Assembly: GCA_028713415.1 (NCBI GenBank)
Contig: JAQTOI010000010.1
Coordinates: 1-33,659 of the forward strand
Length of the DNA: 33,659 bases
Origin: Candidatus Omnitrophota bacterium
Lineage (GTDB): Bacteria > Omnitrophota > Gorgyraeia > Duberdicusellales > 4484-171
Direction of reading: 5' to 3'
How positions within the stretch are numbered: position 1 is the first letter of the stretch; each line of letters starts with the position of its first letter. The notes under the pieces were generated by a model. The model saw only the letters and a program-made list of their open reading frames with translations. It was not told where the DNA came from and did not search any database. The position numbers were made by a program, and so were the translations under genes. Of this stretch, positions 125 through 26,784 are shown one piece after another.

Positions 125-250
125 GACACCGCAAAATCCCGCAAAGCCGCAAAAAGACAAATAAAGAATAATGTTGCGGCTATTTTTAGAGCTATTTTTC
201 TCCATCTCCCTTTTGCGCTTTTGCGCACCCTTTGTGTCTTTGCGGTGTAA
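125..250. repeat. Word-repeat palindromic element 1 (word CGCAAA)
   Basis: ACACCGCAAA at 126-135 is the exact reverse complement of TTTGCGGTGT at 239-248. Left arm has CGCAAA at 130, 140 and 148; right arm has several TTTGCG/TTTTGCGC copies at 208-245. Confidence 0.7.
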
Positions 251-288
251 AAATGCTATTCTCTTCGAAAGTTAAATAACTACCAATT

Positions 289-1125
289 ATGGAAGAAAAT
301 TCTATTAAGAAATGCGACCTGCATATACATTCGACTTTTTCTGACAGCGACGCAACCATAGAAGAAATTTTTAAAGAGGCAGGCGAAAGGCAGCTTTCCT
401 GTATCGCTATAACCGATCACGATACTACTGGCGGTTTAGAGAAGGCTCGCGAGGCAAGCGCACATTACGGCATAGAACTCATTGACGGAATCGAGATCAG
501 CGCTCAAAAAAAAGACTTCGAGGTACATGTTCTTGGATACTACATTAACCCCAAAAATACCGCATTTTGCGAAGCATTAGTGCAAATGAAAAAATTGCGC
601 CGCGAGCGTTACTTCGCCATGGTCAACAAGCTCCACGCATTGGGAGTGAGTATCGATAGTGAAAGAATAGTTTCCAACATCGCCAATTCTATACCCACGA
701 GGTTGCATCTAGGTTTATATTTGGTGCAAAAGGGAGTGGTAAAGTCTTTACGCGACGCTTTCAGGAAATACCTTTCTCCCGGAAAACCCGCCTACATCTC
801 GCGTTTTAAATATTCAGTGGAAGAAGCCATTGCTCTGATTCATTCTTGCGGAGGCTTAGCCTTCCTGGCTCACCCACAGTTGATACCTGATCAGTCCTGG
901 ATAGAAGAATTTGTCGCTTGCGGCCTTGACGGCCTTGAAGTGGTTTATCCTAAATTTTCGCAAACAAAAATCTCTCTCTATACAAACATGGCTGATAAAC
1001 TCGGGTTGCTTAAAAGCGGAGGTTCTGACGCTCATGGCAGTTATAAAGAATATACTGAAGTAGGTAACGTAACTATACCTTACGCGTGGGTGGAGAAGAT
1101 GAAAGAGAGGCGAAGGATCCTATAA
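289..1125 (+). CDS. PHP-domain metal-dependent phosphoesterase
   Basis: N-terminal CDLHIHSTFSDS and ITDHDT, plus later LAHPQ and GGSDAH, typical of PHP-domain proteins. Confidence 0.9.
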   Translation: MEENSIKKCDLHIHSTFSDSDATIEEIFKEAGERQLSCIAITDHDTTGGLEKAREASAHYGIELIDGIEISAQKKDFEVHVLGYYINPKNTAFCEALVQMKKLRRERYFAMVNKLHALGVSIDSERIVSNIANSIPTRLHLGLYLVQKGVVKSLRDAFRKYLSPGKPAYISRFKYSVEEAIALIHSCGGLAFLAHPQLIPDQSWIEEFVACGLDGLEVVYPKFSQTKISLYTNMADKLGLLKSGGSDAHGSYKEYTEVGNVTIPYAWVEKMKERRRIL

Positions 1126-1131
1126 ATTTTA

Positions 1132-1228
1132 GGTTACGAAAGTTACGAAGGTTACGCAGGTTGCGATAATTGAAAATATTTTAAAGGCAACTTTCGTAAC
1201 TCACGTAACATCCGTAACCTACGTAACC
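1132..1228. repeat. Word-repeat palindromic element 2 (word RGTTACGNA, period 9)
   Basis: Left arm: ggttacgaa agttacgaa ggttacgca ggttgcgat (1132-1167). Reverse complement of right arm: GGTTACGTA GGTTACGGA TGTTACGTG AGTTACGAA AGTTGCC (1228 down to 1186). Both arms have an exact 9-bp period. Confidence 0.88.
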
Positions 1229-1270
1229 TTTATTTTAAAATTGTGCGTTACGGTTAGAATAAAAATAACC

Positions 1271-2368
1271 ATGCCTTCTACTGATAAAGATACTTATTTT
1301 TTGCGTAAAACCTTTGCTTTGGCGAGGAAGGCTCAAGGGTTTACCTCGCCTAACCCCATGGTAGGCGCAGTTATAGTTAAAAATGGCCGGATAATAGCTT
1401 CCGGATACCATAAAAAGGCCGGCAAGCAGCATGCGGAAATCGAAGCCATAAGAAAAAATAAAAAGAACTTAAAAGGAGCAACGTTATATATCAATCTTGA
1501 ACCTTGTTGTCATTTCGGAAAGACACCTCCTTGCGTGGATGAAGTTATCAAACAGGGCATAAAAAGAGTTGTTATCGCCGTGAGAGATCCTAACCCGCGT
1601 GTTTGTGGAAAATCCATAAAAAAATTAAAAGCCGCGAAGGTAGAGGTTTACGAAGGTTTACTGGCAGACTCGGCTCGCCAGCTGAATGAAATTTTCTTTA
1701 AAAATATGAAGATGCACTTGCCTTTTGTTGCGGCAAAAGTTGCACAGAGCTTAGACGGTAAGATCGCTACTTCTGGCGGCGCATCGCAATGGATTACACA
1801 AAAAAATAGCCGCCAATACGCCAAAAGTTTAAGAGATAACTATGATGCGGTATTGGTTGGGGTAAAGACAGTCATTGCCGACAATCCTCGTCTCGACGGT
1901 ATCAAAAAAATACCTTTTAAGATTGTCATTGATCCGCATTTGCGCATTCCTTTATATTCGTATCTGGCCACAAGGTATGCTGAAAAATTAATTATCCTGG
2001 CTTCTTGTAAGAATAAGAATGTATCCGCTAAAATTACTTCTGGAGCAAAAATTATCTTCGTAAAAGAAGAGAAAGGGGTTTTAAATTTACGAGATGCTTT
2101 AAAAAGCCTTTATCAGGCAGGGATAATGTCAGTTTTTGTCGAAGGCGGCTCTGAAACCTTAGGCCGGTTTTTTGACTCCCGTCTTGTAGATAAAGTTTAT
2201 TTTTTCATTGCTCCAAAGGTTATCGGCGGACGCCTGTCTCTTAGCTCGATTGGCGGCCGGGGAGCAGAAAAATTAGACAACTACGCGCAGATAAAAGATA
2301 TGCGCATTAAAAGAATAGGCAAAGATATTTTATTTTCTGGTTATCCCTCATATGTAAAACGTTCTTAA
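1271..2368 (+). CDS. ribD: Riboflavin biosynthesis bifunctional deaminase/reductase RibD
   Basis: SPNPMVGAVIV, HAEIEAI and EPCCHFGKTPPC (zinc deaminase) followed by a reductase domain (VAAKVAQSLDGKIA, EGGSETLG). ATG at 1271 preferred over the called start at 1241. Confidence 0.95.
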   Translation: MPSTDKDTYFLRKTFALARKAQGFTSPNPMVGAVIVKNGRIIASGYHKKAGKQHAEIEAIRKNKKNLKGATLYINLEPCCHFGKTPPCVDEVIKQGIKRVVIAVRDPNPRVCGKSIKKLKAAKVEVYEGLLADSARQLNEIFFKNMKMHLPFVAAKVAQSLDGKIATSGGASQWITQKNSRQYAKSLRDNYDAVLVGVKTVIADNPRLDGIKKIPFKIVIDPHLRIPLYSYLATRYAEKLIILASCKNKNVSAKITSGAKIIFVKEEKGVLNLRDALKSLYQAGIMSVFVEGGSETLGRFFDSRLVDKVYFFIAPKVIGGRLSLSSIGGRGAEKLDNYAQIKDMRIKRIGKDILFSGYPSYVKRS

Positions 2369-2398
2369 AGGTTGCGTAACTTTATTTAGGAGTTTTTT

Positions 2399-3025
2399 AT
2401 GACAGAGTCGCAAAGTTTATATAATTTAATAATTTCCCGCCGCTCGATACGTTTTTTTCAACAGAAAGAAATACCAATAGAGATAGTTAAATCAGCTATT
2501 AATGCCGGCAGGCTCGCTCCTTCTGCGGCAAACCTGCAATTTCTCGAGTACCTGGTTATTGACCAAAAATCTTTGCGGGATAAAGTATTCTCCTGCGCGC
2601 GCTGGGCAGGGTATCTGGCTCCAAAACATAACCCGCCCGCAAACATGCGCCCCGCGCTTTATATTATTCTGCTGGTTAATAAGAAAAAAGCAGATAATCC
2701 GGATAGCCGCGATATTGGAGCGGCTGCCGAAAATATTCTACTCTCCTTACTTACCTTTGGAGTAGGCGCTTGCTGGCTTGCCAATATTGATAAAAAGTTA
2801 TTGCGCCGCATACTAAAAATCCCTTCGTTTCTTGAAGTCGATTCTTTGATTGCAGCCGGATTTCCGGCACAAGCCCCTTGCCTTGAGACCGACTCAAAAT
2901 CTGTGCGGTATTGGCTTGATGAATCCGGACGTTTGCATGTGCCCAAAAGGCCTCTGGGCGATATTATGCATTATAATAAAATAGGACTGAAGATGTACGA
3001 CCGCGAAGCACCCGCGCAACTCTAA
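2399..3025 (+). CDS. Nitroreductase family protein
   Basis: ISRRSIRFFQQKEIP, ApSAANLQ and GAAAENILLSLLTFGVGACWLA motifs of FMN nitroreductases. Confidence 0.9.
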   Translation: MTESQSLYNLIISRRSIRFFQQKEIPIEIVKSAINAGRLAPSAANLQFLEYLVIDQKSLRDKVFSCARWAGYLAPKHNPPANMRPALYIILLVNKKKADNPDSRDIGAAAENILLSLLTFGVGACWLANIDKKLLRRILKIPSFLEVDSLIAAGFPAQAPCLETDSKSVRYWLDESGRLHVPKRPLGDIMHYNKIGLKMYDREAPAQL

Positions 3026-3036
3026 TTGCTGTCTTT

Positions 3037-3714
3037 ATGAAAGAATTTGATAATTTAGTAAAAACCGTTAGACTTTTGCGTTCTCCGGGCGGTTGCCCCT
3101 GGGATAGGGCGCAGCGCCTGCGCGATTATAAAAAATACCTGCTGGAAGAAACATACGAGTTAATTGAAGAACTTAACGAAAATAAATATGAAGCAGTTAA
3201 AGAGGAGCTGGGAGATCTTTTCCTTATTCTCATAATAATGAGTGAGATGTTGCGAGAAAAAAGAAAGTATACCCTGCAGGAAGTCCTCTTAGGCATAAAC
3301 AATAAATTAGTCCAGCGCCACCCTCATGTTTTCTCAACTGTGCAGCTAAAAAATAAAGAAGCAGTTTTGAGATATTGGATAAAGCATAAAGCTAAGGCAA
3401 AGAAGCGCAAAACTGTTAAAGAGCGCCTTCCTAAAACCGCTCCGGCACTTTTTTTGGCGGATCTTTTCTTAAAGGAGTACGAGAAGATACACAGCGAAAA
3501 AGCCGCCAATACCGGAGTAGAAGATCTAATCTCAGCGATTACGCATGATTTAAAAAATTTTAATAAACGCAGGGGCAAAGAAACAAACCTTGGTAGTGCA
3601 CTTTTTTCGTTAAGCAAGTTAGCCAGATTATATCGACTTGATTTAGAAAACATTTTGCGCAAAAAAATTTTCCGCCTGGCTCGTAAGACAACCTACCAAT
3701 CAAAAGCTGAATAA
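3037..3714 (+). CDS. mazG: MazG family nucleotide pyrophosphohydrolase
   Basis: LRSPGGCPWDRAQ, LLEETYELIEEL and EELGDLFLILI motifs. Confidence 0.92.
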   Translation: MKEFDNLVKTVRLLRSPGGCPWDRAQRLRDYKKYLLEETYELIEELNENKYEAVKEELGDLFLILIIMSEMLREKRKYTLQEVLLGINNKLVQRHPHVFSTVQLKNKEAVLRYWIKHKAKAKKRKTVKERLPKTAPALFLADLFLKEYEKIHSEKAANTGVEDLISAITHDLKNFNKRRGKETNLGSALFSLSKLARLYRLDLENILRKKIFRLARKTTYQSKAE

Positions 3715-3742
3715 AAGTATAGATATTTTAGGCATTTTCTAA

Positions 3743-3812
3743 TATAATTGAAGGGTCGGGGATTTCTAAACTATGCCGACCCTTCATCCTGAAGCCCGAA
3801 AGGCTGAAGGAT
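3743..3812 (+). promoter_or_regulatory. Candidate promoter -10 followed by two hairpins upstream of the PilZ gene
   Basis: TATAAT at 3743-3748; perfect 9-bp inverted repeat AAGGGTCGG (3751-3759)/CCGACCCTT (3776-3784); second hairpin ATCCTgAAGCCcgaaaGGCTgaAGGAT (about 3786-3812). Confidence 0.4.
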
Positions 3813-3861
3813 CTGACCCCAGCTAATCGAAAAAACTACCCTCAAGGGTCAATTAAGAGCT

Positions 3862-4203
3862 ATGGAAAACAATAAAAGAAGAATCTTGCGGCTTGATGTA
3901 AGTGATTTTCTGGAAATGCGCCCTTTAAATGAAGTAGGCAAATCATTTAAGGGACAATCTCGAAACATAAGCCCTATGGGTATATGTTTTTCTTCCGGGG
4001 TGGAATGGCGCAAAGGCGACGTCCTTTTGATTAATTACTTTATTCCCGATGATTTTGAATCGGTAAAATTAAAGACAGTTGTTATCTGGTCGGAATTTAT
4101 TGATCCTGATAAAGGTTATTTCTGCGGCGCGCAAATAATTGAGGTAGAAAAAGAGAAAGAAGAGAAATTTAATAATTACTACGCGCAGAAACTAAGAAGC
4201 TAA
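3862..4203 (+). CDS. PilZ domain-containing protein
   Basis: SRNISPMGICFSSG and the following beta-rich layout fit PilZ (D/NxSxxG) domains. Confidence 0.75.
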   Translation: MENNKRRILRLDVSDFLEMRPLNEVGKSFKGQSRNISPMGICFSSGVEWRKGDVLLINYFIPDDFESVKLKTVVIWSEFIDPDKGYFCGAQIIEVEKEKEEKFNNYYAQKLRS

Positions 4204-4215
4204 CTCGTTAATATC

Positions 4216-5268
4216 ATGCCGGAAGTTTTCTTAAAAAGAATAACCTATGAAGAGCTTCTTAAAAAACCTGATATAATTGTTGAGTGCATAAAGCAAACTA
4301 AGCTTGCCAAATTTTTTCAAAAGGGCAGTTTTACCGCCTTAAAAATCCATTTCGGAGAAAAAGGTAACACTTCATATATCAACCCCAATTTTCTTCTGCC
4401 GCTTGTAAAATTCATAAAAAAAGAGGGCGCAAAACCTTATCTTTTTGAGACAAATACCCTTTACCGCGGAGAAAGGATGAATACTATAGACCACATCAAT
4501 CTTGCCCTGGGCCACGGTTTTGGTAAATTGAACATTCCCATTATTATAGGTGATGGCTTAAAGGGTGAGGATTATAGCGAAGTGGCGATTAATGGTAAGC
4601 ATTTTAAGAGTTGTTTTTTAGCACAAGCCCTGAAGGATGCCGATTCCCTGCTTGTTTTATCGCATCTGACCGGCCATATGCTTACCGGTTTTGGCGCCAG
4701 CATAAAAAACTTAGGCATGGGTTGCGCAAGCCGCCGGGGAAAACTAGCCCAGCATTGCCAGGTAAGCCCGCAGATAAATGAGGCGCGTTGCCGCGCCTGC
4801 GGCCTGTGCGCAGAAAATTGTGCAGCAAGAGCTATAGAGAAAAAAGGAGAGAAATACTCTATCGTAATAGATAGATGCGTAGGCTGCGCTCAGTGTTTAA
4901 GCGTTTGTAACCAGGGGGCAGTAGATATTGTTTGGTCGAATGAGTATAATCTTATAGGCGAGAAAGTCGCCGAATACGCCTATGCAGCAACAAGAACTAA
5001 AAAATGCGCGTATATTAATTTCTGCCTTTATATTACCAAAGAGTGTGATTGCATGAACAAGGAAAAGTCCGGATTTGTCAAAGACTTAGGCGTTCTTTTA
5101 AGCGATGATCCGGTAAGCATCGATAAAGCAAGCATTGACATGGTGATAAAGCAGGAAGCAAAAGATGCCATACAAGAAGCTCATCCCCAGATAGATTATC
5201 TCCATCACCTCAAATATGCTCAGGATATCGGTTTAGGCTCTTTTGAGTATAAGCTCACTGAGATTTAG
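4216..5268 (+). CDS. DUF362 domain-containing protein with two 4Fe-4S ferredoxin motifs
   Basis: N-terminal DUF362-like region (LKIHFGEKGNTSYINP, HLTGHMLTGFGASIKNLGMGCASRRGK); CRACGLCAENC and CVGCAQCLSVC. Confidence 0.88.
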   Translation: MPEVFLKRITYEELLKKPDIIVECIKQTKLAKFFQKGSFTALKIHFGEKGNTSYINPNFLLPLVKFIKKEGAKPYLFETNTLYRGERMNTIDHINLALGHGFGKLNIPIIIGDGLKGEDYSEVAINGKHFKSCFLAQALKDADSLLVLSHLTGHMLTGFGASIKNLGMGCASRRGKLAQHCQVSPQINEARCRACGLCAENCAARAIEKKGEKYSIVIDRCVGCAQCLSVCNQGAVDIVWSNEYNLIGEKVAEYAYAATRTKKCAYINFCLYITKECDCMNKEKSGFVKDLGVLLSDDPVSIDKASIDMVIKQEAKDAIQEAHPQIDYLHHLKYAQDIGLGSFEYKLTEI

Positions 5269-5303
5269 TAATCCGTATTTTTAGCGCTTCTTTGGAGTTG
5301 ACC

Positions 5304-8300
5304 ATGGATAATAAAGATCCCGCCTCGCATATATCAGAAATAATTTTTGTTGAGGCTTCCGCCGGCAGCGGCAAGACTTTTGCTTTAGCAAAAAGATATT
5401 TAGAACTGCTCATAAATTCGCAAACTGCCCCAGAACACATCCCTTTGCGCAACATCCTTGCCATTACTTTTACCAACAAAGCAACAGTTGAGATGAAAGA
5501 GCGTATTTTAGAGTTTTTAAAACGGATCGCTTTTAATCTCTTTAATAATCCCGACCAGGAAAGAGAGATTTTTTCCTCACTCGCGCTTGAGAAAAGTTTT
5601 GCTCAAGACAGGGCCCGGCGCATCATGGATAAGCTCATTGAGCATTACAATTTTTTCCAGGTTCAAACCATCGATAGCTTCGTTAATGCCATCCTTTTGG
5701 GGAGCGCTTTGAACATTGATCGTTCCTCAAGCTTTCAAATCAAAACCAGTTATTCCCGGTACCTGGCTTATTGCCTTGATTTGGTTATCGAAGAGGCTTC
5801 CAGGAATGATCAAGTATATGATTTTTTTGAAGAATTTCTGGAACACTACCTTCTTGTGCAGAATGCAACTGGCTGGTTTCCAAAGGAAGATATCTTAAAA
5901 CTCATAGAGTCTCTATTCAGGTTAACCAATAAATATGGCTGGTTTTTTTTAATACAGCCCGGAAAAGGTTCTGATGTTATTGCGCAAAAAAAACATATCT
6001 ACGCGCAAATAGAAAATTTGAGCCAAAATTTTCCCGAGGGCTTAAACGCAGCCAGGGCTAACAGCATACTTTCATTTCTCAAAAAAAACGTTCCTATCTT
6101 TGATACCGCGGATATACCCTCGTCTTTTGCCTCAAGCAATATCCCCATGAACAAGAAAAAGGATGCCCCCGATAGAATTTCTAAGCAATGGGCGAAGATC
6201 AACAAAGAGCTGCGTGAGATGTTAGAAATGGATGCGAAAATTTTCTATAATCCCTACCTCAAGCTCCTGACCCTTATTTTTAGTTTTTTTCAGATGGTTT
6301 CAAAGAAAGAAGATATTCTGTTCTTAGAGGAACTGAACCATAAGGCGCGTCTGCTTTTTGACGAGGAGCATGTTACGGTCGCTGAACTATATTATCGCCT
6401 CGCTACCCGTTTCCGTCATTACCTTATTGATGAATTCCAGGATACAAGCGTTTTGCAATGGCATAATTTAGAAACGATGGTTGCCGAAGCTCTCGCTAAT
6501 GGGGGTACGTTGTTCTGCGTAGGCGATAAGAAGCAAGCTATATACCGTTTTAGAGGAGGCGAGGCAGAACTGTTTGAGCAAGTAAAAAAGAGCTTCAGCC
6601 ATTATTATGTTAAACCACGTTATCTTTGCGAAAATTGGCGCAGCCAGAAAACTATCGTTGATTTCAATAATAGAATATTTTCGCGAGAGAACCTGAAAAT
6701 AGCCCTAAGCGTTCCCGATGTCAGCGAAAAATTGGGAGAGTCTTCCTCCAGGCTTGAGCAGATTCTTGATGTTTTTAAAGATACGGCTCAACGCAGCAGG
6801 GAAGAAAACACAGGCGGCTATGTCTATGTGGAACGCATTGATGCAAAAAATAAAGAAGAACGCGATAAAATCATGCAACCTAAGATTTTGAATTTATTGA
6901 ACTCCCTTATCCAAGATAGCCGCTTCAAATACGAGGACATCGCTTTGTTGGCTAAGGATAATGAAGAAGTAGAGCTGATTACTTCTTGGCTACTGTCCGC
7001 AGGCCTCCCTGTTGAGTCAGAGAAAACCCTGAATGTCCTGGAAAACCCTCTTATAAAAGAAGTTACCTCTTTTTTGAGGTTTTTGCATAAACCTGTCGAC
7101 GATTTAAGCTTTGCTTCTTTCATAATGGGTGAAATTTTCAGCAAAGCCTCAAATATTTCAACAACAGAAATTACCGATTTTATTTTTAAACTACATAAGG
7201 AAAAAAAAGTTAGAGCAGATTTTTCTTTATATCGGATTTTTCGCGAGCATTACAAAGAGATATGGGAAAAATATATAGAAGAATTTTTCAAAAACGTAGG
7301 GTTTATATCACATTATGAATTAACAGCGAGCTTTTTTGAACGTTTCTCGGTATATGAAAAATTTCCCCGCGCTCAAGGCTTCTTTATGAAATTTTTAGAG
7401 CTGATCAAAAAAGCTGAAGATGAATATCCGGGGCTGGGTGAGTTTTTGGCTTATCTTAAGGACGCAAGGCCTGAGGATTTATATGTGAGCGTAACCGCGC
7501 CTCTTAGCCTAAAGGTGCTGACAATACATAAGGCAAAAGGGTTGGAATTTCCGGTGGTGATTATTCCGTTCTTGCGCATGGAAGTTGAGCCGGAAACTGT
7601 GGGAAAAGGTACGAGTTCCTACGTGGTTGAGGCCCCCAGGAGCCTGGTGCGTATTACCAAGAAACATCGCGAATTTTCTCAAGAACTTGCGCAAATTTAT
7701 TATGATAATTACCGCAAAGCCTGCATTGACGAGTTAAACGCGCTTTACGTCGCCCTAACCCGGCCCAAATATGAACTGTATGTATTCATTCCCGAGAGAA
7801 GCGATAACGAAAAAAATAATGTTCGGTTTATAATACCTGAAGAAATAAAAGAGTTAGGACAAAAAATAACTTACGCGCAAAAAACTAAAGCGGATAATCC
7901 GCTAATGCAGATCAGCCCTTCGACCTATAAAGATTGGATAAATTCCATTAAAGAAGAATTTGGAAGTATAAACACGATCAGCAATCGAAAAGAAATTATA
8001 GACGGCATCGTTTTGCATGCAATTCTTTCAAAAATTACAAACTGCATCGATGGAGATTTCGAGGAGATATTCAAGGGCGCCCTTGTGTTTGCAAAAAACA
8101 AATTTACGAATATAGACAAATGGCCTGCTTATCAGGCAGAAGTCCTGGCTTCACTGCATAAAGAAGAGATGCATGATATCTTTTATGTAAAGGATGGCCA
8201 GGTATTTTGCGAAAAAGAGCTGGTGAATAATTTTGGAGACTTAAAACGTATTGATAGGCTTATCGTCAAAAATTCGCAAGTCTGGATAGTCGATTACAAA

Positions 8301-8447
8301 AGTTCGGCTAAAGAGAAAGAAGCCTCTCTAGCCCAGGTTATCGAATATATGCGCATTATTGGGGAGATTTATCCTGGAAAGAAGGCAAGAGGTTTTCTGG
8401 TGTATCTGGATGAGGCAAAAATAGAAGAGGTCAAGGACAATGGATAA
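5304..8447 (+). CDS. AddA/RecB-type UvrD-family helicase with C-terminal PD-(D/E)XK nuclease motif
   Basis: Walker A ASAGSGKT, HYLIDEFQDTS, VGDKKQAIYRFRGG, LTIHKAKGLEFPVVI, LYVALTRPK; C-terminal WIVDYKSS nuclease motif. ATG at 5304 preferred. Confidence 0.88.
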   Translation: MDNKDPASHISEIIFVEASAGSGKTFALAKRYLELLINSQTAPEHIPLRNILAITFTNKATVEMKERILEFLKRIAFNLFNNPDQEREIFSSLALEKSFAQDRARRIMDKLIEHYNFFQVQTIDSFVNAILLGSALNIDRSSSFQIKTSYSRYLAYCLDLVIEEASRNDQVYDFFEEFLEHYLLVQNATGWFPKEDILKLIESLFRLTNKYGWFFLIQPGKGSDVIAQKKHIYAQIENLSQNFPEGLNAARANSILSFLKKNVPIFDTADIPSSFASSNIPMNKKKDAPDRISKQWAKINKELREMLEMDAKIFYNPYLKLLTLIFSFFQMVSKKEDILFLEELNHKARLLFDEEHVTVAELYYRLATRFRHYLIDEFQDTSVLQWHNLETMVAEALANGGTLFCVGDKKQAIYRFRGGEAELFEQVKKSFSHYYVKPRYLCENWRSQKTIVDFNNRIFSRENLKIALSVPDVSEKLGESSSRLEQILDVFKDTAQRSREENTGGYVYVERIDAKNKEERDKIMQPKILNLLNSLIQDSRFKYEDIALLAKDNEEVELITSWLLSAGLPVESEKTLNVLENPLIKEVTSFLRFLHKPVDDLSFASFIMGEIFSKASNISTTEITDFIFKLHKEKKVRADFSLYRIFREHYKEIWEKYIEEFFKNVGFISHYELTASFFERFSVYEKFPRAQGFFMKFLELIKKAEDEYPGLGEFLAYLKDARPEDLYVSVTAPLSLKVLTIHKAKGLEFPVVIIPFLRMEVEPETVGKGTSSYVVEAPRSLVRITKKHREFSQELAQIYYDNYRKACIDELNALYVALTRPKYELYVFIPERSDNEKNNVRFIIPEEIKELGQKITYAQKTKADNPLMQISPSTYKDWINSIKEEFGSINTISNRKEIIDGIVLHAILSKITNCIDGDFEEIFKGALVFAKNKFTNIDKWPAYQAEVLASLHKEEMHDIFYVKDGQVFCEKELVNNFGDLKRIDRLIVKNSQVWIVDYKSSAKEKEASLAQVIEYMRIIGEIYPGKKARGFLVYLDEAKIEEVKDNG

Positions 8448-11265: not shown

Positions 11266-11390
11266 AGCCAAAAAACGCATTTATTTTCTCTCACGCAGGT
11301 ATTCAATTTAAATCCAAGTCGTGGAGGTATCTGGTAAAATTTTGCGCGCGCAGCCGTAAACTGTTTGCATGTTTTTAGTCTAAAATGTAG

Positions 11391-11396
11391 TATAAT
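11391..11396 (+). promoter_or_regulatory. Candidate -10 (TATAAT) upstream of the hairpin array and cNMP-binding gene
   Basis: TATAAT 13 nt before the first hairpin; weak TTGCAT at 11365-11370 with a 20-nt spacer. Confidence 0.35.
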
Positions 11397-11408
11397 CGAA
11401 TGAGACTT

Positions 11409-11581
11409 GGGCTTTTGAAGCTCCTTTAGAGGAGCGTACAAAAGCCCTTAGCCGAATTTGTCCCGTTTTTGCACCAGATGGTTTCTCTCTCAATTTTGCA
11501 AAGCAAAATTGAGAAAATAATCAAAGGAGGCAAAAACGGGATAATTCGCACTATTTTTTCTTAAGCGCCTGTGGCGCTTAA
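11409..11581 (+). other. Multi-hairpin leader or candidate structured RNA upstream of the cNMP-binding gene
   Basis: GGGCTTTTG (11409-11417)/CAAAAGCCC (11439-11447) with inner CTCCT/AGGAG; CCCGTTTTTGC (11462-11472)/GCAAAAACGGG (11530-11540); nested TCTCAATTTTGC aaa GCAAAATTGAGA (11488-11514); TTAAGCGCC tgt GGCGCTTAA (11561-11581). Confidence 0.6.
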
Positions 11582-12075: not shown

Positions 12076-12085
12076 AAACAGTAAC

Positions 12086-15951: not shown

Positions 15952-15988
15952 CCCTCACAAGTGCCTTTTTTAATAATATGGAGCTTAG

Positions 15989-17023: not shown

Positions 17024-17024
17024 T

Positions 17025-17807: not shown

Positions 17808-17811
17808 AGGG

Positions 17812-18555: not shown

Positions 18556-18574
18556 TATATCCATTGTTGAATAA

Positions 18575-18970
18575 ATGATTACAACGATGAAGAAATACGA
18601 TTACAGCGATAGGGATCCGCTCACCGCGCAAATAATTGCATGTTGCTATCAGGTCCATAATGAATTAGGACCAGGTTTTGTTGAACGTATATATTTAAAT
18701 GCACTCAAAGTTGCTTTAAAGAAATCAGAGGTAAACTATCGAGAAGAGAAAGAGTTTTCTGTATTGTTTGATAAAGAGATAGTTGGTAAGTTTAGAGTCG
18801 ATCTTATTATCGAAGATAAAGTAGTTGTAGAATTGAAAGCAATAGAAAGCAAGATGCCAAAGATTTTTGAATCGCAAGTTATTTCTTATTTAAAGGCTTC
18901 TGGAATAAAGGTGGGATTATTGGTTAATTTTGGTAATCGACGGTGTGAGATTCGCCGATTAATGCTATAA
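18575..18970 (+). CDS. GxxExxY protein (PDDEXK_3-like predicted nuclease)
   Basis: CYQVHNELGPGFVERIYLNAL (GxxExxY), FRVDLIIEDKVVVELKAIE (D...ExK), SYLKASGIKVGLLVNFGN. Alternative start ATG at 18587. Confidence 0.92.
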   Translation: MITTMKKYDYSDRDPLTAQIIACCYQVHNELGPGFVERIYLNALKVALKKSEVNYREEKEFSVLFDKEIVGKFRVDLIIEDKVVVELKAIESKMPKIFESQVISYLKASGIKVGLLVNFGNRRCEIRRLML

Positions 18971-19003
18971 TCGTTGTAATCATTCCCTAATCGCCGTAAT
19001 CAT
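18575..19003. repeat. Word-repeat palindromic element 3 (word GATTACRNCGAT) enclosing the GxxExxY ORF
   Basis: Left arm GATTACAACGAT (18577-18588) and GATTACAGCGAT (18599-18610). Right arm ATCGTTGTAATC (18970-18981) and ATCGCCGTAATC (18990-19001). 12-bp perfect inverted repeat GATTACAACGAT/ATCGTTGTAATC. Confidence 0.85.
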
Positions 19004-19009
19004 TTATAA

Positions 19010-19633
19010 ATGAAAATACTTATCACTGCTGGTTCTACTTGGGTTAAAATTGATGAGGTGAGGGTGTTAGCCACCATCTTTACCGGCCGAACAGGCGCCT
19101 ATCTGGCCAATGAGTTTAAAAAGAAAGGCTCTGATGTAACTATTTTGATAAACCTTCATGGCTTGGGAGCGCAGAAAAAGGTTTTTGCTAAAGGCATAAA
19201 AGTTATCCCTTTTCGTTATTTAGAGGAGTTTTCTTCAGCGCTGATAAAAGAACTTAAAAAAACGCGCTATGATATGATTATACATAGCGCCGCCGTCAGC
19301 GATTATAAATTAAAAAAAACCTTTAAAGGCAAAATTCCTTCCGGAAAAAATGAGCTTAATCTTAACTTTAAATCTGCCCAAAAAATGATAGGCGCAATAC
19401 GCACCTTGGCTAAAAACTCAATATTGGTTCAGTTTAAATTAGAAATCAAGCGCGCAGGCCTTCTCAATAGGGCTTATAAAAGCTTAGTTGCCAATAAAAG
19501 CGACTTTTGTGTTGCTAATGCGCTGGAAGATTTGCGTCTAGGCTATAAAGCTTTTTTACTTGATAAGGAAAAACAGGTGAAGGTTATTCATTCTAAAAAA
19601 GAGCTTCTTCGGTCTCTTTACCACCTGCTTTAA
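19010..19633 (+). CDS. coaB: CoaB-like phosphopantothenate-cysteine ligase domain
   Basis: MKILITAGSTWVKIDEVRVLATIFTGRTGAYLANEFKKKGSDVTIL, DMIIHSAAVSDYK, FKLE. Confidence 0.82.
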   Translation: MKILITAGSTWVKIDEVRVLATIFTGRTGAYLANEFKKKGSDVTILINLHGLGAQKKVFAKGIKVIPFRYLEEFSSALIKELKKTRYDMIIHSAAVSDYKLKKTFKGKIPSGKNELNLNFKSAQKMIGAIRTLAKNSILVQFKLEIKRAGLLNRAYKSLVANKSDFCVANALEDLRLGYKAFLLDKEKQVKVIHSKKELLRSLYHLL

Positions 19634-19739
19634 ACGGTTATTTGCTAAAAAACCGCGCCTGATAGCGCATTTTCTGGTTAAAATAATAGGTTTACAATAT
19701 TAGCCCATAGGCTTAAAATAACTCTTCATAGGAGGTTTG

Positions 19740-20288
19740 AACATGAAAAAGAATATTTTAGTCGGCGTCTGCGGCGGCATCGCTTCTTATAAAACCTGCG
19801 AATTAATACGCCTGCTGGTCAAGGATGCCTTTAATGTAAAGGTTGTTATGACGGAGTCGGCCACCAGATTTGTTTCGCCGCTGGTATTTCAGACACTTTG
19901 CGATAATCCGGTTTATCTGGATATGTTTGCGTTATTTAAAGAAGATAGGCCGCAGCATATTGATATCGCCCAGTGGGCCTCTTGTGCTGTAATCGCCCCT
20001 CTTTCTGCCAATACTCTTTCAAAAATTGCTTCAGGCATTTGCGATAATCTCTTAACTACGGTAATTTGCGCCTTGCCCGGCAATACAAAATTAATATTGG
20101 CTCCTGCGATGAATAATTGCATGTGGGAAAACCCGCTCATCCAGAAAAACATTCAAACTCTTAAAAACCTGAAAAAATATATTATTATGCCTGCGGAAAA
20201 AGGGGAACTTGCTTGCGGAACCTACGGCCAGGGCAGGATGCCCAGCCCTGAGGACATCTACTCAAAAATCAAAAGCGCGTTGCGTTAG
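19740..20288 (+). CDS. coaC: CoaC-like phosphopantothenoylcysteine decarboxylase flavoprotein
   Basis: NILVGVCGGIASYKTCELIRLL, HIDIAQWA, ApLSANTLSKIASGICDNLLTT, LAPAMNNCMWENP. Confidence 0.9.
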   Translation, partial: NMKKNILVGVCGGIASYKTCELIRLLVKDAFNVKVVMTESATRFVSPLVFQTLCDNPVYLDMFALFKEDRPQHIDIAQWASCAVIAPLSANTLSKIASGICDNLLTTVICALPGNTKLILAPAMNNCMWENPLIQKNIQTLKNLKKYIIMPAEKGELACGTYGQGRMPSPEDIYSKIKSALR

Positions 20289-20313
20289 GCTCGAATAAAG
20301 CGTATATATCATT

Positions 20314-21249
20314 ATGTTAACCTACGTACTATTAGCCATTCTTTTTATCCTTTCGCTGGCCATTGTTATTCTTATTATTAAACTAACCAGAGGACAGAAC
20401 GGCCTCTTGCTTAATCAGAAAATAGATTCCCTTAAAGATGATTTCACTAAAAACATATTACAGGCGCAAAGTAATTCACTCCAGGTTTCCAAAGACCTTT
20501 TAGCCGAACTTTCTAAACTATACGAAAAAATAGGCGGGCTCGATATAGAAACTGGAGAGATATTAAGCCTCACAAAATCATTTCATGATATTTTAAAACC
20601 CACAAAAGCACGAGGAGTTTTAGGTGAAAGCATTTTAGAGGTATTGCTTTATGATGCGCTCCCCGCGGATGTTATTTTTCGGCAATACGCCTTTAGAAAC
20701 GGGAAAAAAGTTGATTTTGCCATAAAGCTTCCCCAGGGCCTTGTTCCCGTTGATGCAAAGTTTTCTCTGGAGACATTTAAAAGCTATGTTGATAGCCCAC
20801 CTGCTGCTGCGGAGCATGAGCGCCATAAGAAAATATTTACGGACAGCGTTAAGAAAAGGATAGAAGAAACCGCCGGATATATATTTTCCGACGAAGGAAC
20901 CACCGATTTTGCCCTCATGTATGTGCCGTCAGAAGCCGTTTATTATTCTATTATTACTGAAACTTCGCTTCTTGATTTTGCTCACCAAAAACGCGTTTTT
21001 TTAGTCGGGCCGCATACTCTTTATGTATATTTGCGGACTATACTGATAGGTTTTCATGCGCTTACCATTGAGAAGCGCGCAAAAGAAATTTATAACAAGT
21101 TGCAGCAGCTTAATGCAGACGTGAAATTGTTAACCGAGGATTACGCCGTGCTAGGCACTCATTTAAGAAACGCCTCTCTCAAATATGACGACACCAGAAA
21201 GAAACTGGAAGGCGTTGGCGATAAAATAGCCAACATGGGCAAAGATTAG
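20314..21249 (+). CDS. rmuC: RmuC family DNA recombination protein
   Basis: N-terminal TM, coiled region, RGVLGESILEVLLYDALPAD, VPVDAKFSLETFKSY, FALMYVPSEAVYYSI. Confidence 0.9.
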   Translation: MLTYVLLAILFILSLAIVILIIKLTRGQNGLLLNQKIDSLKDDFTKNILQAQSNSLQVSKDLLAELSKLYEKIGGLDIETGEILSLTKSFHDILKPTKARGVLGESILEVLLYDALPADVIFRQYAFRNGKKVDFAIKLPQGLVPVDAKFSLETFKSYVDSPPAAAEHERHKKIFTDSVKKRIEETAGYIFSDEGTTDFALMYVPSEAVYYSIITETSLLDFAHQKRVFLVGPHTLYVYLRTILIGFHALTIEKRAKEIYNKLQQLNADVKLLTEDYAVLGTHLRNASLKYDDTRKKLEGVGDKIANMGKD

Positions 21250-21272
21250 TCAAACTGCGTAAAACCGTAAGA

Positions 21273-21497
21273 ATGCAGGTAAAAGTAAAAGTAATTACTA
21301 ACGCTAAAAAAGAAAAGATTGAAGAAACTCAAGACGGTTTAAAAGTTTATATTACTGTTCCTGCCATCGCCGGCCGCGCAAATAAAAAGCTTATAGAAGT
21401 ACTAGCAGAGCATTTTAAGGCTAAAAAATACAATATTGAGATTGTAGCCGGAGAAAAAGCAAGGAAAAAAATTGTCGAGATACGTGAAGCTCACTGA
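21273..21497 (+). CDS. DUF167/YggU family protein
   Basis: VKVITNAKKEKIEETQDGLKVYITVPAIAGRANKKLIEVLAEHFK. Confidence 0.88.
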   Translation: MQVKVKVITNAKKEKIEETQDGLKVYITVPAIAGRANKKLIEVLAEHFKAKKYNIEIVAGEKARKKIVEIREAH

Positions 21498-22140
21498 GAG
21501 AAATAATTGTTATACAATAGATGATTTTTTCGGTCCTTCAGTTATCGCAGGGTTTACTAAGCCAAATCTTTCAGGTAACCCTCAAAAGGATATCCGCGCC
21601 GCCCTTGCCTTTTTAGAATCCGATTTAGCAATCAGTTATCTTAAGCAAGTGCATTCTTCGCTCGTTTGTAACGTGGAAAGAGGAGGCCTTTATACCGGCG
21701 ATGGTTTGTTTACCTCACAAAAATCTCTTGCGTTGGTCGTAAAAACCGCAGATTGCCTGCCTATTTTTTTTGCTAAGCGCGATTCAAGTATGGTTGGCAT
21801 GGTGCATATGGGTTGGAGAGGCGCCCGCGCCGACATATTAGGAAATATTCCAGTTGATTCTTATAAGGTAATCGCAGGTGTGGGCTTGCGCAAGTGTTGT
21901 TATCAGGTGGGAGAGGAATTCCTCGGCTATCCGCAATTTTCTCCCTTTGTCGAAAAGCGGCAGGTAAAATTATATTTTGACGTAATTGCTTTTACAAAAG
22001 AGAGGCTCGCATTAGGCGGAGTTGACGAAAATAATTTTATTGATCTTAAAATATGCAGCCGGTGTCATGACCAGAATTTTTTTTCAAATCGCAGAGATGC
22101 CACGGCCTCTCGTACACTTTCGTTCATTATTAAGAATTAA
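21472..22140 (+). CDS. Laccase-domain protein (PgeF/YfiH family)
   Basis: LKQVHSS, VVKTADCLPIFF, VGMVHMGWRGARADIL, CSRCHDQNFFSNRRD. Confidence 0.9.
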   Translation: MSRYVKLTERNNCYTIDDFFGPSVIAGFTKPNLSGNPQKDIRAALAFLESDLAISYLKQVHSSLVCNVERGGLYTGDGLFTSQKSLALVVKTADCLPIFFAKRDSSMVGMVHMGWRGARADILGNIPVDSYKVIAGVGLRKCCYQVGEEFLGYPQFSPFVEKRQVKLYFDVIAFTKERLALGGVDENNFIDLKICSRCHDQNFFSNRRDATASRTLSFIIKN

Positions 22141-22200
22141 AAATAAGTAACAAAAATTAAAATCTACAATTTATACTATACAAATAATTGTTTTAATCTA

Positions 22201-22290
22201 ATTACGGATGCAGACAGATGCTTACGGATGTCGCGGATTTATTGATATATTCATCCGCCACATCCGCAATAATCCGTGACATCTGTCCTT
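22201..22290. repeat. Word-repeat palindromic element 4 (word CGGATG, period about 10)
   Basis: Left arm attacggatg/cagacagatg/cttacggatg/tcgcggattt (22201-22240). Reverse complement of right arm: aaggacagat/gtcacggatt/attgcggatg/tggcggatga (22290-22251). Spacer of 10 nt. Confidence 0.85.
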
Positions 22291-22452
22291 ATGTATAAAA
22301 ATGTGGAAATTCCTGACAAATTACCCTTACATTTATAAAATTATGTGGTAAAATTATGCCTTATTATTGCGTAAAATATTCTGTTTGGATTTTATTCAAG
22401 GTGCCCCTTAAGAGCGAGACTCTGCTAAAGACGCGAAATCTATACTTGTCAT

Positions 22453-25011
22453 ATGAACGTAAATCTTAAACTGCAAAACTGGGATTTTGATTATATTGGC
22501 TGTTCTCAAGATGTTCTTTTCGCAAAGCTTAACACTTCTCTAAAAGGTTTACACGAACAAGAAGCCGAGAATAGATTGGAAGAATACGGCTACAACGAGC
22601 CCGCCAAGAAGAAAAAAAGAACCATCCTTTTTCAAATCCTCTTAAAATTTTTTAACCCTCTGGTTATCGTCCTTTTGATTATCGCCGGTTTTTCTCTCTT
22701 CTTCGGTGAAAAGATAAGCGCAATTTTAGTTATTGCAATGGCGTTTATCAGCGTATTCTTGTCGTTTATTCAGGAACATCGTGCCGGAAAAGAAGCGGAG
22801 CGTTTGAGCGAAATGGTACGCACAACTACCACTGTCTATCGTAATGGCATCCACAAAGAGGTCGATATTCGAGAAATCGTTCCGGGAGACATTATTGATT
22901 TGTTTGCCGGAGATATGATACCCGCTGATTTAAGGATTATTTCCTGCAAAGATCTTTTTATAAATCAGGCATCTTTAACCGGAGAATCATTTCCCGTTGA
23001 AAAAACACCTGAGGCCGCTAACTCACAAAAGCGTTCTCCCGCAGATTTAACCAATATTGCTTTTATGGGCTCAAACGTAATAAGCGGAACTGGATTGGGC
23101 GTAGCAGTAAAAACCGGCTTGGTAACACAGTTTGGCGAACTTTCGCGAAAGTTAGCCACCATAACCGTTGAGAGTAGCTTTGATAAAGGCATGCATGAAT
23201 TCACGTGGCTTATGATTCGTGCTATGTTTGTGCTGGTGGCGGTTATCTTTGCCATAAATGCTTTCTTGAAAGGAAATGCCATTCAGGCGTTTCTGTTTGC
23301 TCTATCAGTAGCAGTTGGGCTTACCCCCGAGATGCTTCCTATGTTGGTAGCAATTAACCTTTCCAAGGGTGCAATCGCCATGTCCAAGAAGGACGTTATT
23401 GTGAAGCGTTTGAATGCCATTCAAAACTTCGGAGCTATGGATGTGCTTTGCACGGACAAGACAGGGACTTTAACTTTGGACAAAATCGTCTTGGAAAAAC
23501 ACTGCGACGTAGTGCGTAAAGAAAATGATGAGGTGCTGTATTTTGCATATATAAATAGCTATTATCAGACCGGCTTAAAAAATATTTTGGATAGAGCGAT
23601 CCTTAGGCATGAGAGGCTTATAGTAAAACAGTATAAGAAGGTTGACGAGATTCCTTTTGATTTTTCCAGAAAATTAATGTCGGTGGTGATTGAGAATGAG
23701 GGAAAGCACAGGCTTATCGCTAAGGGCGCTCCTGAAGAGATATATAAAAGATGCACAAAATTCGAACTTGAAGGCGATATAATTGATTTAGACGCCGGTA
23801 ATTTAGTGCTTCGGGAGTTGAAAGAAGAATATGACAACTTGAGTGCTGAAGGTTTTAGGGTTTTAGCTATTGCGTATAAGGATTTTGACCAGCCAAAAGA
23901 TAAATATATAAAAGACGATGAACAGGAGTTGATTCTTAAGGGGTATATCGCTTTTCTTGATCCTCCAAAACCTACCGCTAAGAAGACCATCGAAACACTG
24001 AAGAATCTTGGAATAGATTTTAAGGTTTTAACCGGCGACAATGAACTGGTTACTAAAAAAATATGCGGCGAAGTCGGATTAGACGCAAAAGGTCTCGCTA
24101 CCGGTGAAGAGGTCGAAAAATCGAGCGATGAACAATTACGGGTGATGGCTAAGACAACAACGGTCTTCGCCCGGCTTTCGCCACTTCAAAAAGAGCGGGT
24201 AATCCGCGCGTTGCATGCAAATAAGCGTATCGTAGGGTATCTTGGAGACGGTATTAACGATGCACCTGCATTAAAAGCTGCTGATGTCGGTATTTCCGTC
24301 AATAACGCCGTAGACATAGCCAAAGAATCAGCCGATATTATCCTTTTAAAGAAAAGTCTTTTAGTTCTTGAAGATGGGGTTATGGAGGGGAGAAAGACAT
24401 TCGGAAATATTCTCAAATACATCAAGATGGGCTCAAGCTCTAATTTCGGCAATATGTTAAGTATGACAGGGGCAAGTTTATTTTTGCCATTCCTGCCGAT
24501 GCTGCCCATCCAGATACTTTTGAATAACCTGCTTTATGATATTTCGCAGATCGCCATACCATCCGATGATATTGATAAGGAATATTTGTTAAAGTCAAGG
24601 CCATGGAACGTGAATTACATTAAGAAATTCATGTTTACGCTTGGTCCCGTAAGCTCGCTGTTTGATTTTATAACTTTTGGTGTGCTGCTGTGGATATTTC
24701 GTGCCCCGCAGGAACTTTTTCATACCGGTTGGTTTCTGGAATCGCTTTGCACGCAGACTTTAGTAATACATATTATACGTACGGGTAAGATCCCTTTTGT
24801 TGAAAGTAAACCGAGTCAATTCCTGATATTTACTTCTATTTACATTGTTACGATTGGATTAATAATACCATTTATACCTTTGGGGAAGTATTTCGGTTTT
24901 GTCCCACCGCCTCCAACTTATTTTATTACTTTAATTATGATTGTTGCGCTATATCTATTTATGGTGCAAAGAGTGAAAAGATGGTTTATCAGGAAATACG
25001 GATACGAATAA
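22453..25011 (+). CDS. mgtA: Mg2+-importing-type P-type ATPase (MgtA-like)
   Basis: DKTGTLT, SLTGESFPVEK, LTGDN, VGYLGDGINDAPALKAADVGISVNNAVDIAKESADIILLKKSL, 852 aa with C-terminal TM helices. Confidence 0.92.
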   Translation: MNVNLKLQNWDFDYIGCSQDVLFAKLNTSLKGLHEQEAENRLEEYGYNEPAKKKKRTILFQILLKFFNPLVIVLLIIAGFSLFFGEKISAILVIAMAFISVFLSFIQEHRAGKEAERLSEMVRTTTTVYRNGIHKEVDIREIVPGDIIDLFAGDMIPADLRIISCKDLFINQASLTGESFPVEKTPEAANSQKRSPADLTNIAFMGSNVISGTGLGVAVKTGLVTQFGELSRKLATITVESSFDKGMHEFTWLMIRAMFVLVAVIFAINAFLKGNAIQAFLFALSVAVGLTPEMLPMLVAINLSKGAIAMSKKDVIVKRLNAIQNFGAMDVLCTDKTGTLTLDKIVLEKHCDVVRKENDEVLYFAYINSYYQTGLKNILDRAILRHERLIVKQYKKVDEIPFDFSRKLMSVVIENEGKHRLIAKGAPEEIYKRCTKFELEGDIIDLDAGNLVLRELKEEYDNLSAEGFRVLAIAYKDFDQPKDKYIKDDEQELILKGYIAFLDPPKPTAKKTIETLKNLGIDFKVLTGDNELVTKKICGEVGLDAKGLATGEEVEKSSDEQLRVMAKTTTVFARLSPLQKERVIRALHANKRIVGYLGDGINDAPALKAADVGISVNNAVDIAKESADIILLKKSLLVLEDGVMEGRKTFGNILKYIKMGSSSNFGNMLSMTGASLFLPFLPMLPIQILLNNLLYDISQIAIPSDDIDKEYLLKSRPWNVNYIKKFMFTLGPVSSLFDFITFGVLLWIFRAPQELFHTGWFLESLCTQTLVIHIIRTGKIPFVESKPSQFLIFTSIYIVTIGLIIPFIPLGKYFGFVPPPPTYFITLIMIVALYLFMVQRVKRWFIRKYGYE

Positions 25012-25122
25012 AAAAGTTTATTTAATAAATTTGAGCTGGCCGAGATGCTCGGCAGGCAGGTAATAAAATATCAGTGGCGGGAAATTGGCATTCTTTCAAA
25101 TTAACGGTAATTAACCTTTACA

Positions 25123-26205
25123 ATGGAATTAAAAAAAACACCTCTTTATCAGAAACATATAGAGAGTAAGGCAAAAATAGTTGATTTCGGCGGCTGGGCC
25201 TTACCGATTGAATACGAAAGCATTCTAAAAGAAACAAGGGAAGCGCGTAAATCTTGCGGGCTTTTTGACGCTTCGCATATGGGCGAAATAAGAATAGAAG
25301 GTAAAGGCGCGTTAGCCTTCCTGCAGCAGTTAACCTGCAACGATATTTCAATAACAAAAAAAGGTCAGCTTCAATACAATCTTCTCCTTAACGATTCTGC
25401 CGGCGTAATCGACGATTTGATGATTTATAATGTAGGCGATAGTTTTCTCTGCGTTGTAAATGCTTCAAATATCGATAAAGATTATACCTGGCTTAAAGCA
25501 CACCAAACAGCGGAAGTTAAGATTACTGATGAGAGCCCTCAAACAGCCCTTCTTTCTTTACAAGGCCCTACCGCGGTGAATGTTTTAGGAAAAATAGCAA
25601 AATCTGCTTTCGTGAGCGGGCTTAAATATATGCATTCTATTGAAGAGGAAATTGCCGGAAAAAAAATGCTTATTTCACGAAGCGGCTATACTGGAAGCGA
25701 TGGTTTTGAAATCTATTGCGCCAATAGCGATGCTGTTGTATTATGGGACGAAATTACAAAGGCCGGAAAAGAATATGGTTTGGCGCTTTGTGGGCTGGGA
25801 GCGCGCGACATTTTACGCATAGAGGCAGGATACCCGCTCTATGGCCACGAATTAAGCGATTCGATTTCTCCGCTTGAAGCTTCTTTAAACTGGGTAGTTA
25901 AATTTGAAAAAGATTTTATCGGCAAAGATATTTTGCTTAAAGCTAAAGCAAAAGGTATAGCAAAAAAACGGGTTGGCTTTATCATGGAGGAAAGAGCCGT
26001 CGCGCGCCAGGGCTACGCAATCTATGCCGGAGATAAGAATATAGGAGAGGTGACTAGCGGAACATTTTCTCCGAATCTTGATAAATTTTTAGGAATGGCT
26101 TACGTTGATTGTGCTTCGAGCGCTCCGCAAACGCCGGTTACCATAAAAATACGCGATAAATTTTATAAAGCGAAAATAGCAAAGTTTGATTTTATAAAAA
26201 AATGA
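25123..26205 (+). CDS. gcvT: Glycine cleavage system aminomethyltransferase GcvT
   Basis: TPLYQKHIESKAKIVDFGGWALPIEYES, FDASHMGEIRIEG, GYTGSDGFEIYC, GLGARDILRIEAGYPLYGHE. Confidence 0.96.
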   Translation: MELKKTPLYQKHIESKAKIVDFGGWALPIEYESILKETREARKSCGLFDASHMGEIRIEGKGALAFLQQLTCNDISITKKGQLQYNLLLNDSAGVIDDLMIYNVGDSFLCVVNASNIDKDYTWLKAHQTAEVKITDESPQTALLSLQGPTAVNVLGKIAKSAFVSGLKYMHSIEEEIAGKKMLISRSGYTGSDGFEIYCANSDAVVLWDEITKAGKEYGLALCGLGARDILRIEAGYPLYGHELSDSISPLEASLNWVVKFEKDFIGKDILLKAKAKGIAKKRVGFIMEERAVARQGYAIYAGDKNIGEVTSGTFSPNLDKFLGMAYVDCASSAPQTPVTIKIRDKFYKAKIAKFDFIKK

Positions 26206-26292
26206 TTACACAGATTTAGAAAAGATTGCACAGATGGAGGAACGAGATCCTTACACATTAATCTGCGTAATCATATTTTAATCGGTGTAATC
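26204..26292. repeat. Word-repeat palindromic element 5 (word GATTACACAGAT, period 20)
   Basis: Left arm GATTACACAGAT (26204-26215) and GATTGCACAGAT (26224-26235). Right arm ATCTGCGTAATC (26261-26272) and ATCGGTGTAATC (26281-26292). 20-bp spacing in both arms. Confidence 0.85.
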
Positions 26293-26312
26293 TTTCTAAA
26301 AGGGAGGCAATA

Positions 26313-26693
26313 ATGAGTGTTTTAAAATTCTCTAAAACTCATGAGTGGGCGCAGGTAGAAAACAATTTAGCAACAATCGGAATTACTGATTATGCGCAGA
26401 AATCTCTCGGAGATATCGTATTTATCGAGTTACCTGCGCTAGGTTCAAAGGTAAAACAGGGCTTGCAATTCGGGACTATCGAATCTACCAAAGCCGCCAG
26501 TGAATTGTTTAGCCCTTTAAGCGGAGTAGTTTCAGAGATCAACAAAGAGCTTATTAACAATCCGCAGTGGGTGAATGAAGAGCCTTTCGTAAGAGGCTGG
26601 ATGATGAAAATCAAATTCGAAAACAACAATGAATTAAACAGCCTTATGGATGAAGCGGCGTATAAGGAGTTTGTGAAAAAAGAAGCCCATTAA
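26313..26693 (+). CDS. gcvH: Glycine cleavage system H protein
   Basis: KTHEWAQVENNLATIGITDYAQKSLGDIVFIELPALG, FGTIESTKAASELFSPLSG (lipoyl-lysine). Confidence 0.96.
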   Translation: MSVLKFSKTHEWAQVENNLATIGITDYAQKSLGDIVFIELPALGSKVKQGLQFGTIESTKAASELFSPLSGVVSEINKELINNPQWVNEEPFVRGWMMKIKFENNNELNSLMDEAAYKEFVKKEAH

Positions 26694-26698
26694 AAGAT

Positions 26699-26784
26699 AG
26701 AAGCGGAACAACGCGGAACAATACGCGGATAAACGCGGAGCTTTTGGCGTGTTTCCGCGTAAATATCCGCGTGTATCCGCATCT
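26699..26784. repeat. Word-repeat palindromic element 6 (word GCGGAWNAAC, spacing 10-12-10)
   Basis: Left GCGGA starts at 26703, 26713, 26725, 26735. Right arm in reverse complement has starts at 26780, 26770, 26758 and a degenerate GCC at 26748. Both arms have the 10-12-10 spacing. Confidence 0.87.

Follow-up and report, generated by a model that had tools for sequence, protein, structure and literature searches.

Six palindromes, each built of arms that repeat a short word, lie in contig 10 of the genome of a Candidatus Omnitrophota bacterium (G000; 2.17 Mb in 160 contigs), and we propose that they are small mobile elements. This contig, 33.7 kb long, is the whole stretch of DNA that was analysed and is referred to below as the window. 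In the full form of such an element, a single gene lies between two inverted word arrays; the encoded protein would recognise the words, and copies that have no gene would be non-autonomous. We put the probability of this reading at roughly 0.7. Several of its parts are observed by comparing sequences, namely the placement of a gene within word arms, the coupling of protein to word, a split in word period between two protein classes, empty sites in relatives, and the multiplication of coding-dead derivatives. The mobility of the palindromes is well supported by these comparisons, and we infer with fair confidence that the encoded protein recognises its own words.

A preliminary description of the window had proposed that the six palindromes share one architecture while using different words, spaced at about one or two helical turns. 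All six are present and both points stand: the words of the window elements are spaced at 8-12 or 20-22 bp. We searched with a blind detector, to which the words were not supplied and which asks for a k-mer that occurs n or more times in one arm and whose reverse complement, within 600 bp, also occurs n or more times. With 6-mers present twice, it recovers five of the six palindromes, as compared with a mean of 0.4 and a maximum of 2 in block-shuffled windows (40 shuffles); with 5-mers present three times, it recovers four of the six, and 40 shuffles yield none. No further matches occur elsewhere in the window. The palindrome that escapes detection, at 26203..26292, has just two degenerate 12-mers per arm; it still folds at z = -5.6, and its right arm matches the dispersed GATTACNNNGAT family. 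Relative to shuffled sequence, the five short palindromes fold at z scores of -3.8 to -8.2. Consensus-based repeat finders miss the family: a search of the window against Rfam gave no match for any palindrome. The features are listed here; counts per 1.47 Mb come from a run of the detector over stretches totalling 1.47 of the 2.17 Mb.

125..250, no strand assigned: gene-less palindrome with CGCAAA words at 8-11 bp spacing (detector and fold; 11 similar elements in 1.47 Mb).
1132..1228, no strand assigned: gene-less palindrome with GTTACG words at period 9 (detector and fold; 9 elements in 1.47 Mb, all of period 9).
18575..19003, plus strand: complete gene-bearing element with GATTACNNNGAT words (arms and GxxExxY gene; missing from the same-genus genome G001).
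18577..18610, plus strand: left arm of the complete element, GATTACAACGAT..GATTACAGCGAT, two words 22 bp apart (pattern match).
18575..18970, plus strand: GxxExxY gene, 131 aa, predicted PD-(D/E)XK nuclease (PF13366, TIGR04256; profiles, invariant residues and fold).
18970..19001, minus strand: right arm of the complete element, inverted GATTACGGCGAT..GATTACAACGAT (pattern match).
22201..22290, no strand assigned: gene-less palindrome with CGGATG words at a period of about 10 (detector and fold; 8 elements in 1.47 Mb).
26203..26292, no strand assigned: gene-less palindrome with GATTACACAGAT words in the gcvT/gcvH gap (fold; empty site in G030 at L116 and in G034 at L117).
26698..26785, no strand assigned: gene-less palindrome TAGAAGCGGA..TCCGCATCTA in the gcvH/gcvPA gap (13-member family; empty site in G030 at L116 and in G005 at L119).

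The largest of the six, at 18575..19003, had been described as an intergenic element. It is indeed a palindrome, yet its interior, the apparent loop, is an overlooked 131-aa open reading frame that encodes a GxxExxY protein and whose first codons overlap the left arm. The protein scores 128 bits against TIGR04256 (cut-off 35) and 124 bits against PF13366 (PDDEXK_3; cut-off 22). Across 32 homologues, the residues of a catalytic D..ExK motif (D76, E86 and K88) do not vary, and Q101 and Y105 are nearly invariant. The nearest fold to an AlphaFold2 model (pLDDT 90) is the Cas4 protein SSO0001 (4ic1; E 1.6e-3, TM 0.57), followed by another Cas4, AddAB and related nucleases; these matches are modest, none having E < 0.001, and a sequence search of solved structures with GxxExxY returned nothing convincing. 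GxxExxY is predicted to be a PD-(D/E)XK nuclease with a Cas4/RecB-like fold, an assignment that draws chiefly on the family profiles and invariant residues, the fold matches being modest. While the predicted fold and catalytic residues resemble those of the Cas4/RecB family, GxxExxY differs from Cas4 in its length of 131 aa, in standing alone inside a palindrome, and in having no invariant Fe-S cysteines (no cysteine is found in the invariant or nearly invariant columns of the 32 homologues). G000 encodes three GxxExxY proteins, and all three genes are flanked by inverted word arms (GATTAC, GCGGA and CGCAGAT), each word being found in gene-less copies too. At one locus (L045, G000:C104), a miaA-like gene has a complete GxxExxY element on either side, one with GCGGA and the other with CGCAGAT words, and an hflX-like gene adjoins.

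Across the 1.47 Mb, the detector returned 151 merged matches. The strict setting gave 68 against 1 in shuffled sequence, so that shuffling does not reproduce the symmetry of the arms either here or in the window. The looser setting, with 6-mers, does pick up background (143 matches versus 12 shuffled), and some of the 151 matches are therefore not elements. Among strict short elements, 54 of 60 are intergenic. The words had been described as similar within elements and divergent between them, with no single dispersed consensus. This holds inside the window but not genome-wide: the window words recur elsewhere, each as a dispersed multi-copy family, and the argument against a dispersed consensus fails for that reason. 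The TAGAAGCGGA..TCCGCTTCTA family, for example, has 13 members of 71-103 bp with common ends and unrelated flanks, and GATTACNNNGAT pairs number 37 across the whole genome. A period of 9 is found in all nine GTTACG elements, of 8 in 9 of the 11 CGCAAA elements, and of 10 in seven of the eight CGGAT elements. Other families are absent from the window: CGCAGAT (14 elements), TCAGCT (21, all period 7), AAGCTC (6, all period 8) and GACAGA/TCAGAGG (7, all period 7). Thus, the differences in word from element to element reflect membership in different dispersed families, each tied to one clade of encoded protein.

This tie between protein and word extends well beyond G000. GxxExxY genes lie between inverted word arms in Nitrospirota, Desulfobacterota, Omnitrophota, Auribacterota, Patescibacteria, Bacteroidota, Verrucomicrobia and others. 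In a two-copy word test, 51 of 75 GxxExxY loci pass. The figure falls to 11.4 (maximum 18) when arms are swapped between loci and to 3.1 after shuffling, and among 94 control open reading frames 9 pass; the test fails to detect about one third of loci, and loci within one phylum are not independent draws. The closest relatives of the window protein, at about 66-71% identity, come from other phyla and mostly have GATTACNNNGAT arms, and one of the proteins nearest to the G000 GCGGA protein, from Doudnabacteria (L099), has TAGAAGCGGA arms. Word similarity correlates with protein identity: Mantel r is 0.42 overall and 0.32 below 75% identity, values reached in 0 of 999 permutations. Of 62 proteins, 45 share a word class with their nearest relative; shuffling gives a mean of 7.4 and a maximum of 17. 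Pairs of GATTACNNNGAT are enriched where a GxxExxY gene is present: 20 of 33 such genomes contain them, against 22 of 160 that lack the gene (p = 7e-8, uncorrected for relatedness), while the reversed pattern has no match in 193 genomes. Related GATTAC elements at L054-L060, in Nitrospiria, Syntrophaceae and Desulfobacteraceae, sit repeatedly between the end of a histidine-kinase gene and a response-regulator gene; this recurring site may reflect a shared insertion, joint transfer or repeated targeting.

Longer palindromes in G000 enclose a different gene, for the 23S rRNA intervening-sequence protein (IVP/S23, PF05635), which is unrelated to GxxExxY and matches the solved structure 2gsc by sequence. 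G000 has eight IVP genes, with word arms at seven by eye and at least five by the detector, and IVP is present in 144 of 237 genomes searched within the phylum. In the word test, 22 of 37 IVP loci pass versus 2.8 with swapped arms. The two classes differ in period: recurrences in GxxExxY arms peak at 10 bp (411 versus 41 shuffled), with 21-22 bp also represented, whereas those in IVP arms peak at 7 (406 versus 24 shuffled), then 14 and 21. Heptad arrays show no excess in GxxExxY arms (14 versus 17 shuffled). The IVP heptads have five conserved and two variable positions (0.92-0.96 versus 0.67-0.70), a contrast that is inflated since the phase was chosen afterwards. Outside the phylum, IVP was sampled through plasmid loci; all 14 that were inspected (13 cyanobacterial, one Riemerella) have arms, with a period of 7 bp or its multiples in 12 and of 8 in two. 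Long heptad arrays occur at two of the plasmid loci (L278 and L284), and tandem heptads probably expand locally.

Individual IVP loci show further features. One in G000 (L051, G000:C22) has an in-frame TGA in the gene and is a decaying complete element, and in the Nostoc edaphicum plasmid pNe_5 (L277) the genes for the two subunits of ribonucleotide reductase are separated by an antisense element with GGGAGTA arms. Three IVP elements, on plasmids of Anabaena sp. 90, Pseudanabaena galeata and Picosynechococcus sp. PCC 7003 (L278, L284 and L285), lie within cas operons, twice at cas6/cas4 and once at cas10/cmr3. IVP has been reported as CRISPR-associated (PMC10910872), and this association may reflect insertions.

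Two kinds of known sequence resemble the IVP class. The intervening sequences of 23S rRNA likewise carry one IVP gene and inverted ends in about 430 bp, are scattered, and have been proposed to be mobile (PMC4990558). The 7-bp class of G000 shares their IVP/S23 gene, whereas the window elements carry GxxExxY; the elements described here also differ in being intergenic and dispersed, with gene-less copies and heptad word arms, and the inspected IVP loci sit between protein or tRNA genes rather than inside 23S rRNA. Cyanobacterial short tandemly repeated repetitive (STRR) sequences usually have 7-bp repeats and are of unknown function (PMC2670836), and Xanthomonas GGGAATC arrays, which form inverted pairs in 70 and 75 cases, have been ascribed to G-quadruplexes (PMC4692102). 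Both are intergenic arrays of 7-bp units, often in inverted pairs, and the arms of cyanobacterial-plasmid IVP elements are such heptanucleotide arrays; 7-bp tandem words of this kind are found in the IVP class only. Unlike the arms described here, these repeats were treated as stand-alone, with unknown or G-quadruplex function and no tie to a gene. We infer that many STRR sequences and GGGAATC arrays may be arms of IVP elements, on evidence that comes from cyanobacterial plasmids.

The preliminary description had treated mobility as conjecture, and empty sites in relatives (G030, G034, G005 and G001) now support it. Neither the gcvT-gcvH gap nor the gcvH-gcvPA gap has an element in G030, and the gcvT-gcvH gap is empty in G034 too; in other relatives (L115, L122 and L124), the same gcv gaps hold palindromes with different words. 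In the same-genus G001, the tilS-DFP gap has no element and the stop and start codons are 3 bp apart. A genome of the same family, G019, contains GxxExxY remnants with common CACAGAT-type ends that form a deletion series. One 152-bp internal deletion is common to four unlinked places, with similarity stopping near the arms. The copy that multiplied therefore had no working gene, and short copies were probably moved in trans. At three G019 loci (L220, L222 and L226), a second palindrome of about 38 bp (CACCCTGTTAGAT..ATCTAACAGGGTG) is nested in the arms of the CACAGAT element. Target-site duplication was not seen: among 13 family members, junction repeats average 1.46 nt versus 1.42 in mismatched pairs.

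How might such elements work? The encoded protein would bind the words of its own arms, and the word period would mirror the placement of protein on nucleic acid. In the GxxExxY class, which the window palindromes fit with the exception of the GTTACG element, the word spacing is about 10 bp, or about 21 bp where the word is a 12-mer; a 10-bp period would suit a nuclease that reads one face of duplex DNA. The IVP/S23 protein is a four-helix bundle, and its words recur at 7 bp (sometimes 8), with five conserved and two freer bases. TRAP reads GAGNN repeats; an IVP ring could perhaps act in a similar way, with one subunit per heptad on single-stranded nucleic acid and two bases left free. A solved relative of IVP is reported to be a pentameric ring (PMC4990558). 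Bound protein would mark both ends of an element and so enable its copying into the seams between genes without target-site duplication, and copies without the gene would retain the arms and be moved in trans, giving rise to many short palindromes.

Several points weigh against this reading. The coupling of protein to word could be plain co-inheritance of linked DNA, and it fades below about 55% protein identity. The CGCAAA, CGGAT and GTTACG families have no cognate gene in G000; for the last of these (the window element at 1132-1228 and eight further G000 elements with a strict 9-bp period), no gene-bearing copy was found in that genome. The GTTACG class has no assigned protein, and is possibly a third class with a protein of its own. 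Another genome, G198, has 44 CGCGGA array matches but no GxxExxY match, and these arrays may be orphan non-autonomous elements or reflect a lost gene. A word family may lack a cognate gene in its genome because the gene was lost, is missing from the assembly or is dispensable. To our knowledge, neither GxxExxY nor IVP is a known transposase, and binding and mobilisation by the encoded protein are read from sequence patterns.

The palindromes might instead be passengers of a conventional transposase such as the RAYT Y1 transposase, with GxxExxY and IVP as incidental cargo, but we consider this unlikely. It is typical of non-autonomous elements to be short and palindromic, to leave internally deleted derivatives and to multiply in trans, and REPIN/RAYT systems follow the same logic (PMC3116915). 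Like REPINs, the elements described here are short hairpin-forming palindromic doublets in many copies, with several families per genome, each with its own protein, and multiplied in trans. They differ in that the partner is a nuclease or four-helix bundle rather than a Y1 transposase, the gene lies within the palindrome, and the arms are periodic word arrays. Miniature inverted-repeat transposable elements of DDE transposons similarly have internal deletions and terminal inverted repeats and are moved in trans; here, however, the arms are defined by words rather than fixed ends, no target-site duplication was seen, and no transposase was found, though DDE transposases were not searched for. 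Moreover, the arms enclose a GxxExxY or IVP gene time after time, and both the word class and its period vary with the gene enclosed. RAYT-driven REPINs were rejected, as neither of the two Y1 transposase genes in G000 has word arms.

Alternatively, the palindromes could act as RNA hairpins in operons (terminators, RNase III sites or mRNA stabilisers), with the encoded proteins binding RNA arms as in rRNA intervening sequences. The predicted RNA folds are strong, intervening-sequence RNA is excised by RNase III (PMC4990558), and, of the 50 strict short elements for which a gene was called on either side, 42 have neighbours that run in the same direction. Yet 597 of 658 gaps of at least 40 bp are co-directional regardless, the IVP gene at L277 is antisense to both neighbours, and empty sites and multiplied dead copies require DNA movement. 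A PD-(D/E)XK nuclease also points to DNA. We regard an RNA role as quite improbable in place of mobility. As an addition to mobility it is compatible: as with RNase III-excised intervening sequences, a role of the hairpins in RNA may coexist with movement and may make operon insertions harmless.

The preliminary description had favoured a third explanation, in which concerted evolution, through copying from arm to arm and unit to unit, generates the words of every element, and we now consider it very improbable. Within the window alone most words do look private to one element, and local expansion of heptads would be in keeping with such copying. However, each word belongs to a dispersed family with a nearly fixed period, the same words accompany related proteins in other phyla, and arm-to-arm homogenisation is not seen in the 13-member TAGAAGCGGA family, where the identity of an arm to its own partner (0.67) is not above that to the partner arms of other members (0.73). 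Chance is rejected by the shuffles and swapped-arm controls.

We found no earlier link of GxxExxY, PF13366 or IVP to repeats, and no earlier description of these elements, in the open-access literature. A broader proposal, on which we are somewhat more doubtful than confident, is that the elements form a superclass of mobile DNA in bacteria, in which one small protein that is not a transposase reads periodic words as an evolvable code. The nuclease (10-bp) and the four-helix ring (7-nt, TRAP-like) would be convergent solutions, and the superclass would take in heptanucleotide STRR sequences and IVP genes along with the intervening sequences of rRNA and many intergenic palindromes that are so far unexplained. 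Apart from this broader proposal, the pairing of word and spacing with the gene carried, seen in many bacterial phyla, may account for a number of repeat types that have been known for decades but lack a mechanism; it suggests what the cyanobacterial heptanucleotide repeats are, unexplained for as long, and makes the origin of rRNA intervening sequences testable. Where an IVP or GxxExxY gene lies within an operon, cas or other, it may have been inserted there and not be a functional partner of its neighbours, a caution for reading such neighbourhoods. The many natural proteins paired with their own repeated word also provide a ready data set for learning a sequence-recognition code. If the proposed reading is correct, GxxExxY and IVP, both widespread families without a known role, would gain a candidate function.

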